Origin: Caenibius sp. WL
Lineage (GTDB): Bacteria > Pseudomonadota > Alphaproteobacteria > Sphingomonadales > Sphingomonadaceae
NCBI RefSeq assembly: GCF_019803445.1
Contig: NZ_CP081844.1
Span: forward strand, 186,001-250,000
Direction of reading: 5' to 3'
Length of the DNA stretch: 64,000 nt
The notes under the pieces are model-generated. The model worked only from the letters and a program-made list of their open reading frames with translations. It was not told the origin of the DNA and did no database searches. Both the position numbers and the translations under genes were made by a program. Positions 6,164-52,451 of this stretch are shown one piece after another (positions within the stretch are counted from its first letter, which is position 1; every line of letters begins with the position of its first letter).

Positions 6164-8602
6164 ATGAAAAATAACACTATTTATCCCATTTCGGCTCCCC
6201 GCGCGAAACTGCGACGCTGGCCCTTGCTGACCGGCGCGGCCATGCTGCTGGGCATCCCGGCTGCTGCCCATGCAGCCGCTACCAACAGCGCGGAGGCCAC
6301 GCAAATCGCCGACACCGCCGAGAACACCGCCTCCGATGCATGGAGCGCCGATGCCATCATCGTCACCGCTTCGCGCCGCCGCGAGGAAAACGTTCAGGAT
6401 GTGCCGATCGCGATCACCACGCTGAGCGCGGACGCGATTGAGCGACGCGGCGATTATACGCTGCAACAGGTTCAGCAGCAGGTTCCCTCGCTACAGGTGT
6501 TCAGCTTCAACCCGCGCAACACCAACATCAACATTCGCGGTCTCGGCTCCAATGTCGCGCTGACCAACGACGGACTGGAGAACGGCGTCGGTATCTATAT
6601 CGACAACGTCTATTTCGGGCGCGTCGGCCAATCGCAGTTCGATCTCGTCGATCTCAGCCAGATCGAAATCCTGCGCGGCCCGCAGGGCACGCTGTTCGGC
6701 AAGAACACCACCGCCGGGGCGGTCAACATCACGTCGCGCCTGCCCAGCTTCGAACCCGAATTTTCCGGCGAGGCAACGATCGGCGACTATGGCTATCATC
6801 AGGTGCGCGGCTCGATCTCGGCGCCGCTGATCGCTGACAAGCTGGCTTTCCGCCTCAGCGTGGCCGACACCCACCGCGACGGGTTCCTCTACAACAAGGC
6901 GCAGGACGCCAAGGCCCAGGACTATGACAACTTCACCGTTCGCGGGCAGTTGCTGGCCAAGCCGACCGACCGCCTGACTCTCCGCCTGATCGGCGATTTC
7001 TCCCGCCAGAAGCAGAACCATGTGCTGAACGTGCTGGCCGGGACATTCGACAGGTACGACGACGGCACGCCGATCCCGGAAAGCTTCGCCATCCGCACCG
7101 CGCGGGCTGGATATACGCCCGCGTCACGCGATCCCTTTGCCCGCATCGGCGATGCCGACAGCCATTACCAATCGAACATGAAAGGCTATGGCCTTTCGGG
7201 CGAAATCAACTGGGATCTGGGCAAAGTCGCGCTGACCTCCATCACCGCCTATCGCTGGTGGGACTGGGACCCGGCGAACGATGGCGACAGCACGGCGCTG
7301 CCGGTCATCACCAAAGCGCAGCAGGTCAACCGCCAGCGCCAGTTCAGCCAGGAAATCCGCCTCGCTTCCAACGGCAAGAACACCATCGACTGGGTCGTGG
7401 GCGGTTACTACTTCTGGCAGATCATCCGAGGCTACGGCGCCACCGCCTATGGCGCGGCGGCACCCAACTGGTTCCTGCCGACAACCCCGGCCGCCATCGC
7501 CAATGCCGCGCTGAACGGGTTCGAGGCGCAGTCCACGTCCACCCCCGAAACGAAAAGCTATGCCGCGTTCGGGCAGGCGAGCTGGAACATCTCCCCCCGG
7601 CTGAGCCTGACGGCGGGCCTGCGCTTCACGCATGAGAAGAAGCAAGGCGCCTACACCCAGTATCATGCCGGGGGTGTGGACCTGGCCACGCTGCCGCCCG
7701 ATCTTGCCGCGGCGGCGGCGGCGATCCGCGCGGGCTATGCCCCGGTAACCAGCTTCTCCACCCGGTTCAGCGACAACAGCCTCTCGGGTCTTGTCTCGCT
7801 CGGCTACAAGATCACGCCCGATGTGCTGCTCTACGCGACCTATTCGCGCGGCAACAAATCGGGCGGGCTGAATCTGGCGCAATTGCCCGCCGGGGTCAGC
7901 CCCACTGTCGCCCCGGAACGGGTGGACAGCTATGAAATCGGCCTCAAAAGCCAGTTGTTCGACCGGCAGGTGACGTTCAATCTGGCGGGCTACTGGACCG
8001 AAATTACGGACTACCAGACCGCGATCACCGAACAGCTGCCCAACACGGTCCGCTTCATCCAGTATATCGCCAATATCCCCAAAGTGCGTTCGCGTGGGGT
8101 GGATGCGGACCTGACCTGGGCGCCCACGCGACTGATCAACTTCACCGCTTCGGCATCCTACACCGATGCGAAATACCTTTCCTACACCAACGCCCCGCAA
8201 GCGCCGGAGCGGTTGAACCAAAGCGCGGTACAGGATCTTTCGGGTGAGCAACTGCCCGGTGTGCCGAAGTTCACTTATGCGCTGGGGGCCGACCTCGCCC
8301 AGCCGCTGGGCGAATGGCAGGGCCGCTCGATCGAGTTGTACGGCCATGCCGATTACTCGCACCGTTCGTCCTTCAACACCTCATCCAGCAATTCGCGCTA
8401 CGCCGATGTGCCCGGCTACGGGCTGGTCAACGCGCGGATCGGCATTCGTGACGCCGACGCCCGCTGGGATGTGTCCGTTTGGGTCAAGAACCTGACGAAC
8501 AAGGATTATTTCCAGACGCTCAGCCCCACCGCGCAAGGTTCGATCACCGCGCTGATCGGCGAACCGCGCACCATCGGCGCAACCCTGCGCACCCGGCTTT
8601 GA
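6164..8602 (+). CDS. TonB-dependent receptor of the sulfate-ester operon
   Basis: Outer-membrane TonB-dependent receptor of 812 residues that would import a large or scarce substrate, here probably an organosulfate. An N-terminal signal sequence (basic start, hydrophobic GAAMLLGIPAAAHA) supports the ATG at 6164, although the frame is open upstream to 5906. The plug domain begins after IIVTASRRREENVQDVPIAI and contains LRGPQGTLFGKNTTAGAVNI. The beta-barrel fills the rest and ends LRTRL. There is no N-terminal signalling domain, so no transducer-type sigma control. It precedes the AtsK-like dioxygenase by 26 bp. The cargo is inferred from the operon. Confidence 0.9.
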   Translation: MKNNTIYPISAPRAKLRRWPLLTGAAMLLGIPAAAHAAATNSAEATQIADTAENTASDAWSADAIIVTASRRREENVQDVPIAITTLSADAIERRGDYTLQQVQQQVPSLQVFSFNPRNTNINIRGLGSNVALTNDGLENGVGIYIDNVYFGRVGQSQFDLVDLSQIEILRGPQGTLFGKNTTAGAVNITSRLPSFEPEFSGEATIGDYGYHQVRGSISAPLIADKLAFRLSVADTHRDGFLYNKAQDAKAQDYDNFTVRGQLLAKPTDRLTLRLIGDFSRQKQNHVLNVLAGTFDRYDDGTPIPESFAIRTARAGYTPASRDPFARIGDADSHYQSNMKGYGLSGEINWDLGKVALTSITAYRWWDWDPANDGDSTALPVITKAQQVNRQRQFSQEIRLASNGKNTIDWVVGGYYFWQIIRGYGATAYGAAAPNWFLPTTPAAIANAALNGFEAQSTSTPETKSYAAFGQASWNISPRLSLTAGLRFTHEKKQGAYTQYHAGGVDLATLPPDLAAAAAAIRAGYAPVTSFSTRFSDNSLSGLVSLGYKITPDVLLYATYSRGNKSGGLNLAQLPAGVSPTVAPERVDSYEIGLKSQLFDRQVTFNLAGYWTEITDYQTAITEQLPNTVRFIQYIANIPKVRSRGVDADLTWAPTRLINFTASASYTDAKYLSYTNAPQAPERLNQSAVQDLSGEQLPGVPKFTYALGADLAQPLGEWQGRSIELYGHADYSHRSSFNTSSSNSRYADVPGYGLVNARIGIRDADARWDVSVWVKNLTNKDYFQTLSPTAQGSITALIGEPRTIGATLRTRL

Positions 8603-19380: not shown

Positions 19381-20199
19381 TTACCCTTCCCGCAGCGCAA
19401 TCCGCTTCACGCAGCGGTCTTCGCTCAGTTCCACCACCATATCCGCGCGGCCCGACATGTCCGCCAGCATATGGCGCGTCAGCCGTTCGTAATGCTGGAC
19501 GAACCGCGCCAGCGCCGCATCCGCCATCACGCCCGGCGCATCATCCCCCACACGCATGCGCAGTGCGTCCTCCTGCTGCTTGCGCCAGTCATAGACCGTG
19601 GCGAAATCGGGCGCGGCCAGAAACACCAGGACATCGATCCGCGCGAACAGGCGCTGATAATCGCCGGCCAGCGCCCGGTTGACGTAGCCGCGCCACAGGC
19701 CCTGCGCGTCTTCCCGCCGTTCGAGTGCGTTGACCGGTTCGGCCAGCGCGGCCGGCGCCTGTGGCAATGCGCCCACGCACCATCCTTCGAGCACCAGCAC
19801 CTGCGTGCCTGCGGGCGCGTGGGGCCAGCCGGCGCGGGGCATGCGGTCGTCCCGCGCCTTGTCGAACCGGGGCAGCGCCGCCGTCTCCCCCCGTTCCAGC
19901 GCGGCGATCACCGCCAGCCCCAGCGCGATATCGTGTGTGCCCGGCACCCCGCGCGTGCGCAGCAGGGGATGCACCGTGCGCGCCAGCGCCTCCCGCTCCG
20001 CAAGAGTGCGATAGAGATCGTCGAGCGACAGCACCGCGACCGTCACCCCGGCCTCAGCCAGGCGGCGGGAAAGCGCGGCGGCCAGCGTCGATTTGCCGCT
20101 GCCCTGCGCCCCGCACAGGCCCAGCACCAGCGGGCGGCGCGCCTGCCCGGCGAGCGCGTGGCGGACCACGGAGTCGAGCCGGTCCACCAGCATGGTCAT
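19381..20199 (-). CDS. P-loop kinase, D-glycerate 3-kinase-like
   Basis: A 272-residue P-loop kinase of the phosphoribulokinase/GLYK group, which includes plant-type D-glycerate 3-kinase making 3-phosphoglycerate. The Walker A GAQGSGKST is at residues 30-38, followed by LSLDDLYRT, where the Asp pair fits substrate or metal binding. LEGWCVGALP and the YDWRKQQE segment are typical of this group. It is a single gene on the minus strand, facing the upstream TBDR's terminator. Its 5' flank begins the first copy of a repeated intergenic element, 24 bp from the start. Glycerate as substrate is inferred from similarity only. Confidence 0.72.
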   Translation of the reverse strand: MTMLVDRLDSVVRHALAGQARRPLVLGLCGAQGSGKSTLAAALSRRLAEAGVTVAVLSLDDLYRTLAEREALARTVHPLLRTRGVPGTHDIALGLAVIAALERGETAALPRFDKARDDRMPRAGWPHAPAGTQVLVLEGWCVGALPQAPAALAEPVNALERREDAQGLWRGYVNRALAGDYQRLFARIDVLVFLAAPDFATVYDWRKQQEDALRMRVGDDAPGVMADAALARFVQHYERLTRHMLADMSGRADMVVELSEDRCVKRIALREG

Positions 20200-20741
20200 C
20201 GCCGCTTCCGCCCGGCGTGACGGGTTGACGCAGAACGGCCTGAAAGTGCGCGCGCCATGGCCGCGCCGCGCCGATCATCGGATATAGCCACAGCCCCATA
20301 ACGCCATGGGATTACAATGTGTTGCGGCGCAGGCGATACCCCCGTACGGATTGCAGCCGCCATGCATGGGTGTGACTTTCCACGCCGGTACAATGATACC
20401 GGGACATCAGCCGAATGCCGACCACGCCAAGGATCGAACCATGGCCGGGCAACAGGCAGGGGCCGGATCGCATACCGCATCATCGCGCAGGACAAGCCAT
20501 ATTTCGCGCCTGTAGGAAAGCGTCTTTCCCGCTGGCAGGCGGATCAGATATCCCTCGGCCCCGGCAATTCGCATCGTGGCCCCGGTTCAACGAACCGATC
20601 GAAAGGCCGCGTTCCAGGACTGCCCATCTTTTCCATTTTCTCGAATGTTTCAGTGCAAATTATCTCACTGAGCAGAAGGTGCGGCAAGCCCTATATAGAG
20701 GGCAACCATGGGCCCACCGGGGCCCTCCAAGGAGACCGACA
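20200..20741. other. 542-bp intergenic region containing repeat copy 1
   Basis: No gene is supported between the kinase and the pirin. Positions 20224-20520 form one copy of a two-copy element described separately. The right third has an inverted repeat TCAGTG/CACTGA with a 10-nt spacer at about 20650-20671 and an AT-rich TATATAG stretch near 20690 that could be the pirin gene's -10 region. Short open frames here have no recognisable domains. Confidence 0.5.
20224..20520 (+). repeat. Repeated intergenic element, copy 1
   Basis: Three blocks match the copy at 50271-50590 in the same order and orientation. Block A, 20224-20251, matches 26 of 28 bases. Block B, about 20360-20402, contains TGTGACTTTYCRCGCCGGTA and an inverted repeat CGGTA-N6-TACCG. 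Block C, 20480-20520, matches 36 of 41 bases and ends TGTAGGAAAG. Between A and B a short CCCATAAC match also keeps its relative place. The sequences between the blocks have diverged. No terminal inverted repeats, target duplications or shared reading frame are apparent, so a non-coding RNA or a protein-binding array is more likely than a transposon remnant. Confidence 0.75.
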
Positions 20742-48366: not shown

Positions 48367-49146
48367 ATGGAAGGCATCAAGGACAAGGCGGTTATCGTCA
48401 CCGGCGGCGGCTCGGGGATCGGCGCGGCGATCGCCGAACATTTCCACGCGGCGGGCGCGCAGGTGGTGATCGCCGGGCGCGACGTGGCCAGGCTGGAAGC
48501 GCAAGCCGCGAAAATGGCCGATCCCGCGCGGGTGCGCCACACCCAGGCCGATGTCGGCCGGATCGAGGATATGGAAGCGCTGATCGCCTTCTGCCTGGAA
48601 CAGTTCGGGCGGCTGGATGTGCTGGTCAACAATGCCGGTTCGGGGATGCTCGGGCCGATTGCCGATATCGATCCCGCGGTGTGGCGCCATGTCATCGCCA
48701 CCGATCTCGATTCCGTGTTCTACGGCGCAAAATTCGCGATTCCCCATCTGCTGAAAACGGGCGGATCGATCGTCAACATCTCCTCCATCTGCGGCGTGGC
48801 GGGCGATCCGGGGTTTGCCGCCTACAACGCGGCCAAGGCGGGCGTGATCAATTTCACCCGCTCGCTGGCGCTGGAAATGGCCGACAAGGGCGTGCGCGCC
48901 AACACCATCAGCCCCGGCCTGATCCGCACCCCGTCGACCGAACAGGTGCCGCCGCCCTCTTTCGCCGGGTGGGAATCGCTGATCCCGATGGGCCGCGCGG
49001 GCACGGTGGACGAAATCGCGAGCATGGCGGTGTTCCTCGCCAGCGATGGGGCGAGCTATATCACCGGGCAGAATTTCGTGGTCGACGGCGGCATCACCGC
49101 CCACACCGGCCAGCCGCATTTCCTGCGCTATCACGCGATGGGATAA
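48367..49146 (+). CDS. Short-chain dehydrogenase/reductase
   Basis: Classical SDR of 259 residues: TGGGSGIG near residues 13-20, NNAGSG near 88-93, catalytic Ser in ISSICG and YNAAK near 154. The FabG-like C-terminus reads YITGQNFVVDGGI. Asp-less AGRDVARLE after strand 2 leaves the cofactor open. GACAGGAGAG precedes the start. First of two plus-strand SDRs; the gap of 123 bp to the next allows a shared or separate transcript. Substrate unknown. Confidence 0.86.
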   Translation: MEGIKDKAVIVTGGGSGIGAAIAEHFHAAGAQVVIAGRDVARLEAQAAKMADPARVRHTQADVGRIEDMEALIAFCLEQFGRLDVLVNNAGSGMLGPIADIDPAVWRHVIATDLDSVFYGAKFAIPHLLKTGGSIVNISSICGVAGDPGFAAYNAAKAGVINFTRSLALEMADKGVRANTISPGLIRTPSTEQVPPPSFAGWESLIPMGRAGTVDEIASMAVFLASDGASYITGQNFVVDGGITAHTGQPHFLRYHAMG

Positions 49147-49269
49147 GCCCGCCGCGCGCCATCGGCCCCCTGCCCGCTCTTGACACCGCCCCCATGCGGA
49201 ATCACGGTTCGCAGGGCAGGCCGCATGGCGCCAGCCGGGCAAGAGGCCAACCGTGAAAGGGGATAATCC

Positions 49270-50223
49270 ATGACAGGCCAGTTTGGCGCGAAATCGACAA
49301 CCGACGAGGTGCTGGATGGCATCGCCCTGGGCGGCAAGCGCGCTCTGATCACCGGCGTTTCGGCCGGGCTGGGCGTGGAAACCGCGCGGGCCCTGGCGGC
49401 GCGCGGCGCCGCCGTGGTGGGCGCGGCGCGCGATCTCGCCAAAGCGGAAGAGGCGACCGGCGGAGTCCGCGCGGCGGCGGCGGCCGGTGGCGGCACCTTC
49501 ACGCTCGTCGAACTCGATCTCGCTTCGCTCGCCAGTGTGCGGGCCTGCTCCGACCGGCTGCAGGCCGATGGCCGCCCGTTCGATATCGTGATCGCCAACG
49601 CCGGGGTCATGGCGACGCCGTTCGGCCACACGCAAGACGGGTTCGAAACCCAGTTCGGCACCAACCATCTCGGCCATTTCCTGCTGATCAACCGGATCGC
49701 CCCGCTGATCGCCGATGGCGGGCGGGTGGTGATCCTGTCGTCGGGCGGCCACCAGATCAGCGATGTCGATCTGGCCGATCCCCATTTCGCCAGCACGCCT
49801 TACGATCCGTGGGTCGCCTATGGCCGGGCGAAAACGGCCAACGCGCTGTTCGCGGTGGGGCTGGACAAGCGGCTGCGCCAGCGCGGCATTCGCGCCTGCT
49901 CTGTGATGCCAGGCGCGATCCACACCGATCTGGGCCGCTACATGACGCCGGAAACGGTCGCCGCGCTGCTGGAAAGCGTCAAGACATCGGGTTCGGGCAA
50001 GCTGGAATACAAGACCGTGCCGCAAGGCGCGGCGACATCCGTCTGGGCCGCCGCAGTGGCCGATGGCGATGCGGTCGGCGGGCGCTATTGCGAGGATTGC
50101 CAGATCGCGGAAACGGCCTCGGCCAGCATCACCGGCGGCGGTGTGCAGCCCTATGCGCTCGATCCCGAAAACGCCGAACAACTCTGGGCAAAGAGCGAGG
50201 AACTGGTCGGCGAACGGTTCTGA
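49270..50223 (+). CDS. SDR, retinol dehydrogenase/WWOX-like
   Basis: A longer SDR of 317 residues in the style of retinol dehydrogenase/protochlorophyllide-reductase-like members: TGVSAGLG near residues 28-35, IANAGVMATP near 113, GTNHLGHFLL, catalytic Ser in LSSGG and YGRAK near 182. After residue 230 it has the extended C-terminus (VGGRYCEDCQIAE) seen in this branch. GAAAGGGG precedes the ATG. The second copy of the repeat element begins 47 bp after its stop. Confidence 0.85.
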   Translation: MTGQFGAKSTTDEVLDGIALGGKRALITGVSAGLGVETARALAARGAAVVGAARDLAKAEEATGGVRAAAAAGGGTFTLVELDLASLASVRACSDRLQADGRPFDIVIANAGVMATPFGHTQDGFETQFGTNHLGHFLLINRIAPLIADGGRVVILSSGGHQISDVDLADPHFASTPYDPWVAYGRAKTANALFAVGLDKRLRQRGIRACSVMPGAIHTDLGRYMTPETVAALLESVKTSGSGKLEYKTVPQGAATSVWAAAVADGDAVGGRYCEDCQIAETASASITGGGVQPYALDPENAEQLWAKSEELVGERF

Positions 50224-50270
50224 CCACGCCTGCCGTTTCATCCAATCTTACCGTGCGGCGGCGCATGCGA

Positions 50271-50590
50271 GTTGACGCAGAACAGCCCGAAAGTGCGCCG
50301 CCCCTACCCCTTGGCGGGGAGGCCGCAAACGGCGCGGCCCATAACATAGCATCCTGAAAAACAAGGGTATCTTACCGAGACCAAGGCAGTGACGGAATAT
50401 CCCGCACACACACGCGCCATACATGGTGTGTGACTTTTCGCGCCGGTATCCTGATACCGTCCGGGTGGCACATGGCGGCTTGGAGCATAGTCTGCTCCGC
50501 CTCGTAATCACGCCGGGGGAATCGGAATGAGCGGGATGTCTGCGCTGGGTCATCGCACAGGATAAGCCACGTTTCGCGCGTGTAGGAAAG
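50271..50590 (+). repeat. Repeated intergenic element, copy 2
   Basis: Blocks A (50271-50298), B (about 50418-50459) and C (50550-50590) match copy 1 at 20224-20520 in order and orientation. Block spacing from the start of A is similar (B at 147 against 136, C at 279 against 256). In this copy the block B core is a perfect 16-bp palindrome, CGGTATC-CT-GATACCG (50444-50459). CCCATAAC at 50338-50345 is also shared. The stretches between blocks are unrelated or strongly diverged. Confidence 0.75.
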
Positions 50591-50701
50591 GTCAGTCTAT
50601 CGCGGCCCCCGCGAAGGGCCGATAGACCTGCCCCGCTTCCGAAGTTGCGCAGGCATTCCGCCCGTTGAGCGCATATTTGCACACGACACGATCGCCCAAA
50701 G

Positions 50702-50728
50702 AAAAAGGGGCGCAGCCCGCGCCCCTTT
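50702..50728 (-). terminator. Rho-independent terminator of minus-strand SDR
   Basis: On the minus strand: AAAGGGGCGC, 5-nt loop, GCGCCCC, then five Ts. It lies 22 bp beyond the SDR stop at 50750. Confidence 0.8.
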
Positions 50729-50749
50729 CCCCAGTCCTGACAGGCCGGA

Positions 50750-51508
50750 TCAGATCGCGGTCTGGCCGCCGTCGATCGTCAGGATCGTGCCGGTGGCATT
50801 GACCGCCGCATCCGATGCGAGGAACGCGATCGCCGCCGCCATTTCGGAGGGATCGGAACCCTTCTGCGTCAACGGCGAGAGGCGGCTCATCAGTTCGAGA
50901 TCGACATCCGGCCCGAAATTGCCACCATCCTTGGTCATCGGGGTCAGCACATGGCCGGGGCAGATCGCGTTCACGCGCACGCCGCGCCGCGAATATTCCG
51001 CCGCCATCGATTTGGTCAGCCCGACAACGCCGGATTTGGACGCGCTGTAGGCCGCGCCATAAGGGATACCCACGAGGCCCGCCGTCGAAGCGACATTGAC
51101 GATGCAGCCGCCGGTTTCCAGCAGGTGCGGAATGGCGCGCTTGCTGATGAAGAACGGCCCGTTGAGATTGACTGACAGGACTTTCAGCCACAGTTCGTCA
51201 GGAAACTGTTCGGTCGGCCCGTTGCCGAGCACGCCCGCGATGTTGCACACCACATCCAGCTTGCCCAACGCTTTCACGCTCTCATCGATAAGGCGGGTGC
51301 AGCTATCCGGGTCCGAGGTATCGCAGGCCACGGGCACGACTTTGCCCTTGGCCCCGCCGGCCAGCTTCTGTGCCGCGGCGTTCAGACCCTGTTCGTTGAG
51401 ATCGGCGATCACGATATCCGCGCCCGAACGGGAAAACAGCTCTGCCGTGGCATAGCCGATGCCCGATGCGCCGCCCGTGATCAAAACGGCCTTACCAGTA
51501 AAATCCAT
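50750..51508 (-). CDS. Short-chain dehydrogenase/reductase
   Basis: Classical SDR of 252 residues: TGGASGIG near residues 12-19, VIADLNEQG after strand 2 (Asp favours NAD), CNIAGV near 83, catalytic Ser in VASTAG and YSASK near 150. The C-terminus ATGTILTIDGGQTAI is FabG-like. The ATG at 51508 (MDFTGKAVLITGG) is chosen; an in-frame TTG six bases upstream would add two residues. Followed by a clear terminator. It may be transcribed with the SDR upstream at 51582 (73-bp gap). Substrate unknown. Confidence 0.86.
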   Translation of the reverse strand: MDFTGKAVLITGGASGIGYATAELFSRSGADIVIADLNEQGLNAAAQKLAGGAKGKVVPVACDTSDPDSCTRLIDESVKALGKLDVVCNIAGVLGNGPTEQFPDELWLKVLSVNLNGPFFISKRAIPHLLETGGCIVNVASTAGLVGIPYGAAYSASKSGVVGLTKSMAAEYSRRGVRVNAICPGHVLTPMTKDGGNFGPDVDLELMSRLSPLTQKGSDPSEMAAAIAFLASDAAVNATGTILTIDGGQTAI

Positions 51509-51581
51509 CCACAATTCCCATCTTCTTGGTTGTTATCCGCGCGGGTGACCGGCACCCCGCAACCCGTTCCGGCATATCCTA

Positions 51582-52367
51582 TCAGCCCGGCATGTAAAGC
51601 TGCACGGCCTTTCCGCCGTCCACCGGCAAAGCGGCGCCGGTGATATAGCTGGCCGCGTTCGACAACATGAAAACGATCGCTTCGGCCAGTTCCTCCGGCT
51701 CCCCGCCACGCCCCATCGGGATGGCATCGGCCGTGCGTTCCGCCATGTCCGGGGCGCGGCTGGCGAATTCCTCCGTCGCCGCCGTCTGCACCTGCCCGGG
51801 AATGATGGCGTTGACGCGAATGGCATCGCGCGCACCCTCCATCGCGGCGGCGGCGGTGAAATGGATCAGCGCCGCCTTGGACGCGGAATAGCTGGCCATG
51901 TTGGCCGCGGCGCGAATGCCGCAGGTGGAGGAGATGTTGACGATGGCCCCGCGCTGGCGATCATGCAGCGGCTGCCCGGCCATCACTTTCATCGCGGCCT
52001 TGGTGCCGACGAACACCGCATCGGCGTTGACGGCGAAATCCTTGCGCCAGTGATCCAGCTTGAGCTGGGCGATCGGCGCATAGTGCACCGACATCGCATT
52101 GTTCACCATCATGTCCAACCGGCCGTATTTCGCCGCCACATCCTCCACCAGCGCGATGAAGGCATCGGTGTCCGACACGTCGAGCTGGCGCGCTTCCACT
52201 TCGCCGACAGCGGCGATTTCCGCGCGGGCGCTTTCCAGCTTTTCGGGGCGGCGGGCGCAGATCACCACCCGCGCGCCGCGCCGGGCGAGCAATTTGGCGG
52301 TGGCGAGACCGATCCCGTCGCTCCCCCCGGTGACAATGGCAACCTGCCCGACAAGATCCTGAGACAC
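51582..52367 (-). CDS. Short-chain dehydrogenase/reductase
   Basis: Classical SDR of 261 residues: TGGSDGIG near residues 13-20, CARRPEK after strand 2 (NADP-like), NNAMSV near 87, catalytic Ser in ISSTCG and YSASK near 157, C-terminus YITGAALPVDGG. The start is a GTG at 52367 (VSQDLVGQVAIVTGG) behind GAGGGG; the frame is open far upstream without family similarity. A TGGACT-N2-AGTCCA palindrome lies 85 bp upstream, between this gene and the divergent pirin. Substrate unknown. Confidence 0.85.
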   Translation of the reverse strand: MSQDLVGQVAIVTGGSDGIGLATAKLLARRGARVVICARRPEKLESARAEIAAVGEVEARQLDVSDTDAFIALVEDVAAKYGRLDMMVNNAMSVHYAPIAQLKLDHWRKDFAVNADAVFVGTKAAMKVMAGQPLHDRQRGAIVNISSTCGIRAAANMASYSASKAALIHFTAAAAMEGARDAIRVNAIIPGQVQTAATEEFASRAPDMAERTADAIPMGRGGEPEELAEAIVFMLSNAASYITGAALPVDGGKAVQLYMPG

Positions 52368-52451
52368 GCTTTCCCCTCTTCCTGACCAAAAGCCCGCCTC
52401 TTGCAAGGCGTGGCCTGACAATCCGGCACCCGTTTTCAGCACCAGAAGTAT

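Follow-up and report, generated by a model that had tools for sequence, protein, structure and literature searches.

Copy 2 of a repeated element lies at 50271-50590 of the window, the window being the whole 64,000-nt stretch of Caenibius sp. WL DNA analysed here. Sequence matching puts the start of block A at 50271 and the end of block C at 50590, which are exactly the limits given by the initial annotation. Its placement of the copy between convergent genes is also correct, the neighbours being two SDR genes. On the minus strand, from 50590 to 50271, copy 2 comprises in order a promoter box (TTTCCTAC), an ATG, a stop-free frame, motif B' (GAAAAGTCACAC) and motif A' (CTGCGTCAAC). Its features are listed below.

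49270-50223, plus strand: SDR gene left of copy 2 (open reading frame)
50248-50553, minus strand: stop-free frame from the ATG, 101 codons plus stop, without a Pfam match
50271-50298, minus strand: motif A', which is block A (minus strand GCGCACTTTCGGGCTGTTCTGCGTCAAC)
50428-50439, minus strand: motif B' (GAAAAGTCACAC; plus strand GTGTGACTTTTC)
50444-50459, no strand: inverted repeat CGGTATC-CT-GATACCG, the G-x-x-x-P codons of the HTH protein in intact copies
50546-50590, minus strand: block C, promoter box to start codon, match of sequence model R1 (G000:C1:236546-236590)
50551-50553, minus strand: ATG, 36 nt from the promoter box
50582-50589, minus strand: promoter box TTTCCTAC, part of block C; the same box precedes HTH genes in relatives
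50750-51514, minus strand: SDR gene right of copy 2 (open reading frame)

Copy 1, at about 20221-20520, has the same A-B-C block order.

19381-20199, minus strand: kinase-like gene (family scores below cut-off), its start overlapping the end of the copy 1 frame
20196-20483, minus strand: stop-free frame, 95 codons plus stop, the stop overlapping the next start (ATGA)
20224-20251, minus strand: motif A'
20370-20381, minus strand: motif B'
20481-20519, minus strand: promoter box to ATG

The window has further features of note. Segments of 94-129 bases at 6640, 17393, 26361 and 38059 of the window are repeated in direct and inverted orientation, perhaps as parts of paralogous genes. Several SDR-type reading frames, two of them family-tested, form a row at 48367-52373. 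A terminator-like GC-rich inverted repeat (AAAGGGGCGCAGCCCGCGCCCCTTT), detected as a self-match, separates copy 2 from the right SDR gene at 50704-50728.

The initial annotation had reasoned that no promoter is needed between convergent genes. This argument fails, as minus-strand block C is the promoter box and start codon that precede intact HTH genes. In copy 2 the interval from box to ATG is 50589-50551 on the minus strand. The 101-aa frame stops 23 nt past A', with the convergent SDR gene behind it. No Pfam family matches the frame at E 0.01, so the HTH domain is absent from copy 2. No co-directional gene follows, the next gene being the convergent SDR gene, and copy 2 thus has no stop/start overlap of the coupled-leader type. 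Copy 1 does have one, the TGA of its frame overlapping the ATG of the kinase-like gene (ATGA). An open frame like that of copy 1 arises in 9.6% of shuffles and one like that of copy 2 in 5.5%. Therefore, the case for copy 2 is carried by its family, not by copy 2 alone. In the congeneric genome G003, the left SDR gene has a 76% match, behind which no module was found, and the match of the right gene lies elsewhere.

How large is this family? Comparing the copy 2 stretch with the whole 3.49-Mb genome (G000) gave 32 matching pieces. Grouping these, together with a block A search, resulted in 16 full copies, in which copy 1 is E1 and copy 2 is E2. The block order is A-B-C in all 16; A and B are 79-205 apart, B and C 102-387. 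An exact search of G000 for GTGTGACTTTYC found 23 matches (control 0), which correspond to the 16 full copies, six shorter copies (E17-E22) and a lone match. By eye, each of E17-E22 has an A-like motif upstream, and E21 is without C. The short copy E23 has A and C with a degenerate B. This puts about 7 shorter copies beside the 16 full ones, some 23 dispersed over the chromosome. The lone match (L090, G000:C1 2880549) is a solitary GTGTGACTTTCC with neither an A nor a C motif. Blocks A, B and C are nearly invariant, and the intervening sequence cannot be aligned over all copies. At up to 2 mismatches, block A occurs 17 times in G000 and not at all in 58 other genomes. E2 and E3 have 73 bases in common at 97% around block C. 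A search of plasmid records for the element gave no match. The proposal that the element is dispersed in the genome, and that the three blocks belong together, is supported by full and shorter copies beyond what chance would give.

The distance from promoter box to ATG is 36 nt in 16/16 full copies. A promoter-only pattern, TTTCCTACN{26,28}ATG (that is, TTTCCTAC-N26-28-ATG), was used to search the congeneric genomes G000 and G003. G000 has 24 sites (control 1) and G003 has 15 (control 4). All 39 have a downstream motif, either A+B (27 sites, five with HTH) or a tandem TGTCAMC-NN-TGTCAMC (12 sites). These unit motif patterns were written after the units had been seen and the loose A pattern has no chance control; the strict B and tandem patterns gave 0 control matches in both genomes.

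What is preserved between the ATG and the last motif is the absence of stop codons. Over this interval in the 34 HTH-less units, the ATG frame is open in 29 and the other frames in 12 and 12. Stops number 8 in the ATG frame and 35 and 39 in the others (2346 codons, leaving out the frame-1 TGA forced by an ATGA start). In 2000 mononucleotide shuffles the mean was 7.7 open frames and the maximum 15. The A+B units (17/22 open; stops 8, 25 and 31) and the tandem units (12/12 open; stops 0, 10 and 8) both contribute. With HTH copies included, 12 of the 16 full copies are open (stops 5, 31 and 30, of which 13 of the 31 are the forced TGA). An observation that counts against the reading preferred below is that five of the 34 HTH-less units do have stops in the ATG frame (E3, E9, E13, E20 and G003:494750). 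Those in E3 and E9 are located 14-16 codons before the end of A'.

The codon signature of these frames is slight. For 17 of the 22 A+B units (16 with an open frame, plus E3 as far as its stop; E6 and four stop-bearing units are excluded), GC at codon positions 1, 2 and 3 is 0.61/0.61/0.60, and the 12 tandem units give 0.68/0.60/0.66. The values are 0.70/0.64/0.76 for five HTH genes and 0.71/0.53/0.82 for a flanking SDR gene. GC3 bias is thus small or absent in these 29 HTH-less units. Conservation of the blocks at the protein level was considered and rejected, in that the reading frames of B' and A' differ among copies and, by eye, variation in C ignores codon third positions. These patterns are most simply read as the product of selection that removes stops and places little constraint on the peptide.

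The tandem motif extends the family beyond the A+B modules. It occurs 18 times in G000, 9 times in G001, once in G002 and 13 times in G003, and is present in 12 of 59 genomes. Among 30 tandem loci of G000 and G003, a T.TCCTAC box followed 34-37 nt later by a start is present at 17, and at 15 of these the leader frame runs beyond the repeats. The dihydroorotase leaders (L301 and L305) end before the repeats, which again counts against the preferred reading. A further point against it is that the other 13 loci have no such box and start within 700 nt, two of them (L292 and L307) being apparently inside genes. By eye, a recognisable gene follows 11 of the 12 promoter-bearing tandem units, L236 being the exception, and nine genes possess the motif in both G000 and G003. 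NCBIfam identifies genes after tandem leaders as uvrC, lepB (signal peptidase I), thiL and pdxH, with a partial match below cut-off for a ligase-associated DEXH helicase. Short fragments after the motif match pyruvate phosphate dikinase, dihydroorotase and lexA. Overlap of the leader stop with the start of the next gene measures 4 nt at 7 of the 30 loci and 8 nt at 2 more; for lepB the start concerned is a TTG, and the real one may be further on. Five orthologous leader peptides were tested. Those of lepB (19/42 identical), uvrC (14/46) and an SDR gene (22/50) score above all 300 shuffles, and those of the helicase and thiL do not. Some leader peptides may matter. An HTH remnant was never seen in this class, and its promoter and frame rule is the same. 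The repeat near lexA (L297, G000:C1 2057382) is a tandem TGTCACC about 180 nt upstream of the gene. With lexA, uvrC and a DNA-damage-associated helicase in one set, a link to DNA repair is possible.

Intact relatives provide a clue to the origin of copy 2. A block C model, applied to 118 genomes, gave matches at E 0.01 in 21, a part of these matches being weak. The good ones fall, on the minus strand, where small HTH genes have their promoter region and start. In G000, three copies (E7, E8 and E10) retain the HTH region between C' and B'. The E8 protein has 156 aa, similar in length to its relatives. The HTH gene extends through B', and A' comes directly after the stop in E8. The HTH proteins have weak Pfam HTH_28 matches. 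A larger subfamily of them resembles PHROG 4044 ('terminase small subunit') with E=4.2e-16, and small ones do so with 2.5e-6 and 7.6e-4. However, neither Pfam nor NCBIfam gave a terminase match for the HTH proteins, a scan of viral contigs with the large subfamily (600 pattern matches) gave no relative, and the loci that were read gave no sign of phage surroundings. A scan of genome contigs found at least 270 HTH relatives. The best 80 of these are from sphingomonads, except two labelled only Alphaproteobacteria or Proteobacteria, and 66 of the 80 loci have T.TCCTAC 36 or 37 nt before an in-frame ATG. Two large-subfamily genes of equal score in G000 (C1 1323052 and 3241677; L224, L225, L293 and L302) are followed by near-identical DNA, including a CGTCATCCCCGCGCAGG-type repeat and a TGTCAACCGTGTCAAC tandem.

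Several loci are occupied with and without the HTH part in different genomes. By its flanking genes, the locus of HTH-less E11 carries intact HTH genes in G002 (L057) and G003 (L059), and the G002 gene is identical to one of Croceicoccus estronivorus MH-B5 (L114). Conversely, the locus of E10, which retains HTH, is HTH-less in G003 (L093). HTH-less E13 shares its locus with Croceibacterium (L130 and L135), and the locus of HTH-less E17 is common to several genera. Copies like copy 2 are accordingly HTH-less derivatives, and the HTH part was lost more than once. The same follows for copy 2 from B' and the inverted repeat, since both are codons of the HTH protein. B' encodes R-K-V-T in the HTH gene, and the palindrome stretch encodes G-[IN]-x-[IV]-P on the minus strand of intact relatives.

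What if copy 2 is only the ghost of an HTH gene? In this scenario of decaying pseudogenes, the blocks would be remains that have not yet decayed or have been copied by recombination. The independent losses at shared loci are in keeping with it, as is the lack of a gene after copy 2, and the stretch common to E2 and E3 is what copy exchange would give. However, decay would not be expected to leave blocks nearly invariant in an otherwise unalignable sequence, or to deplete stops in the ATG frame only, even though B' is out of frame in several copies. Nor would it extend to the tandem class, which obeys the same promoter and frame rule without HTH remnants. Decay is, on balance, a rather unlikely explanation.

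The initial annotation had made a perfect 16-bp palindrome the core of the element. The 7-bp arms of CGGTATCCTGATACCG at 50444-50459 do match, but the central CT is not symmetric; the fully symmetric form is that of E3 (CGGTATCATGATACCG). Copy 1 does keep CGGTA-N6-TACCG, as had been noted, in the form CGGTACAATGATACCG at 20386-20401. The pattern is its own reverse complement and occurs on the window plus strand only at these two sites. The palindrome is not the core, being absent from E13, E15 and E16 (and, by eye, from the shorter copies), whereas the adjoining GTGTGACTTTYC is present in 16/16 full copies.

This bears on the idea of a non-coding RNA gene, on one strand or the other, in which A and B would make contacts and the palindrome would form a hairpin. 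An intergenic, multi-copy element with its own promoter box would suit such a gene, and the inverted repeat is kept in 13 of the 16 full copies. However, neither strand folds more strongly than expected (fold z-scores -0.46 and -0.18), and Rfam has no match in the window or 10 related loci. Palindrome pairs do not covary beyond shuffles (17 rows, leaving out palindrome-lacking copies as well as E8 and E10, which are near-duplicates of E7). The conserved ATG and frame are likewise not those of a non-coding gene. An ordinary structured small RNA is thus not supported, and we consider any non-coding RNA gene improbable. Mutual base pairing of A, B and C was also dropped as a candidate, as by eye the complementarity is not kept in G003.

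The motifs exist in species versions. In G000 all 23 matches are GTGTGACTTTYC and none is GTGTGACCTTYC. The CCTT form makes up 4/4 matches in G002, 2/3 in G001 and 6/9 in G003, where a match is not always a module, and two G003 modules (L201 and L256) have the CTTT form. The shift in B between species is a tendency, without a clean switch. Block A is likewise species-dependent. Such versions could result from an altered trans-acting partner or from exchange between copies, as seen for E2 and E3. The HTH helices read VGRSRES in G000 and VGCSRET in G001-G003, a difference that, beside that of the motifs, is suggestive only.

Species-specific versions and about 23 dispersed copies are also properties of a structural chromosomal site, i.e., a protein-bound operator array for chromosome organisation with transcription incidental. 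However, a promoter box, a fixed distance to the ATG and frame conservation would be unexpected in such an array, as would a tandem class at gene starts. A structural site is very unlikely, and one centred on the palindrome is not supported, the palindrome being dispensable and without covariation beyond shuffles.

E7, E8 and E10 are near-identical modules (L035, L036 and L038) with similar flanking repeats (CCTGAGC.TGTCGAAGG and TCATTCCCGCG), and look like a recent duplication. In E9 (L037) the HTH part is seemingly replaced by sequence of the flanking-repeat type, and the ATG frame closes only about 15 nt ahead of A'. A non-autonomous, MITE-like mobile element would account for this apparent duplication and for the dispersed copies with internal deletions that accompany three retaining the protein gene, but several copies are at loci common to several genera and neither terminal inverted repeats nor target duplications were seen by eye in the 16 copies with flanks, and we regard it as very unlikely.

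The explanation that we tentatively prefer, with a little less than even confidence, is that copy 2 is a minus-strand leaderless unit that descends from a small HTH gene, carries a frame through operator-like motifs and belongs to the family described above. The promoter box TTTCCTAC would drive it, and its transcript probably begins at the ATG 36 nt downstream or close to it. The leaderless frame would then be translated through the operator-like motifs B' (GRAARGTCACAC) and A' (CTGYGTCAAC). The ancestral gene would have encoded a small HTH protein with a weak likeness to phage small terminases, and would have lost its HTH part. B', A' and TGTCAMC (GTCAC/GTCAAC-type) are predicted sites for a DNA-binding protein, and the HTH family is the first candidate. 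Passage of the ribosome through the sites may be part of the control, with coupling to the next gene where one exists. The tandem TGTCAMC class would represent leaders of ordinary genes, often with stop/start overlap. Because no same-direction gene follows, copy 2 itself is most likely a free-standing member or a remnant. Perhaps it is a titration site or an antisense unit, if not a remnant. A short transcript would be expected from it, as a translated leaderless unit. The independent function claimed by the initial annotation stands in part. The conservation pattern argues for a function beyond a neighbour's promoter, but not for a small RNA or a palindrome-centred site.

A more general idea, though a doubtful one, is that ribosomes on a leaderless start must translate a near-arbitrary 'spacer' through internal operator sites as a form of lineage-specific control. 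Selection would then maintain the promoter, the ATG, the sites and a frame free of stops, and would barely constrain the peptide. One architecture would thus serve HTH regulator genes, their HTH-less derivatives and the leaders of DNA-repair and housekeeping genes. With a frame kept open and little peptide selection, translation would be a mechanical step. If true, this would account for a group of poorly conserved 'hypothetical proteins' in Sphingomonadales and point to a role for the multi-copy HTH family that resembles small terminases. There are dozens of copies in one genome, some before uvrC, thiL, lepB and pdxH, and together they suggest an undescribed gene-control system in this bacterial group. 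In the portions of the literature covered by a search, no description of this motif or architecture was found.

The arrangement resembles several known systems in part. Small terminases have pac or cos binding sites inside or beside their own gene, and the placement of the module motifs is similar. The HTH relatives match PHROG 4044, but differ from phage small terminases in the missing Pfam or NCBIfam terminase match, viral relative and phage context. Translational coupling via overlapping stop and start codons, as outlined in PMC6728339 and PMC12548453, is approached by copy 1 and several tandem-class leaders, where the leader stop overlaps the start of the next gene. However, here one promoter box and one leader-end motif are common to many unlinked genes, the leader peptides are weakly or not conserved and copy 2 has no following gene. 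In the leaderless expression of Deinococcus-Thermus, as outlined in PMC12340547, the -10 region adjoins the open reading frame. The module is alike in having its ATG where the transcript should begin, but here the TTTCCTAC box about 36 nt before the ATG is the most conserved part and a downstream motif is added. Lastly, the module is short, dispersed, intergenic and present in many copies, like REP or MITE-type repeats. Unlike them, it has a fixed promoter-ATG-motif order and occupies loci common to several genera.
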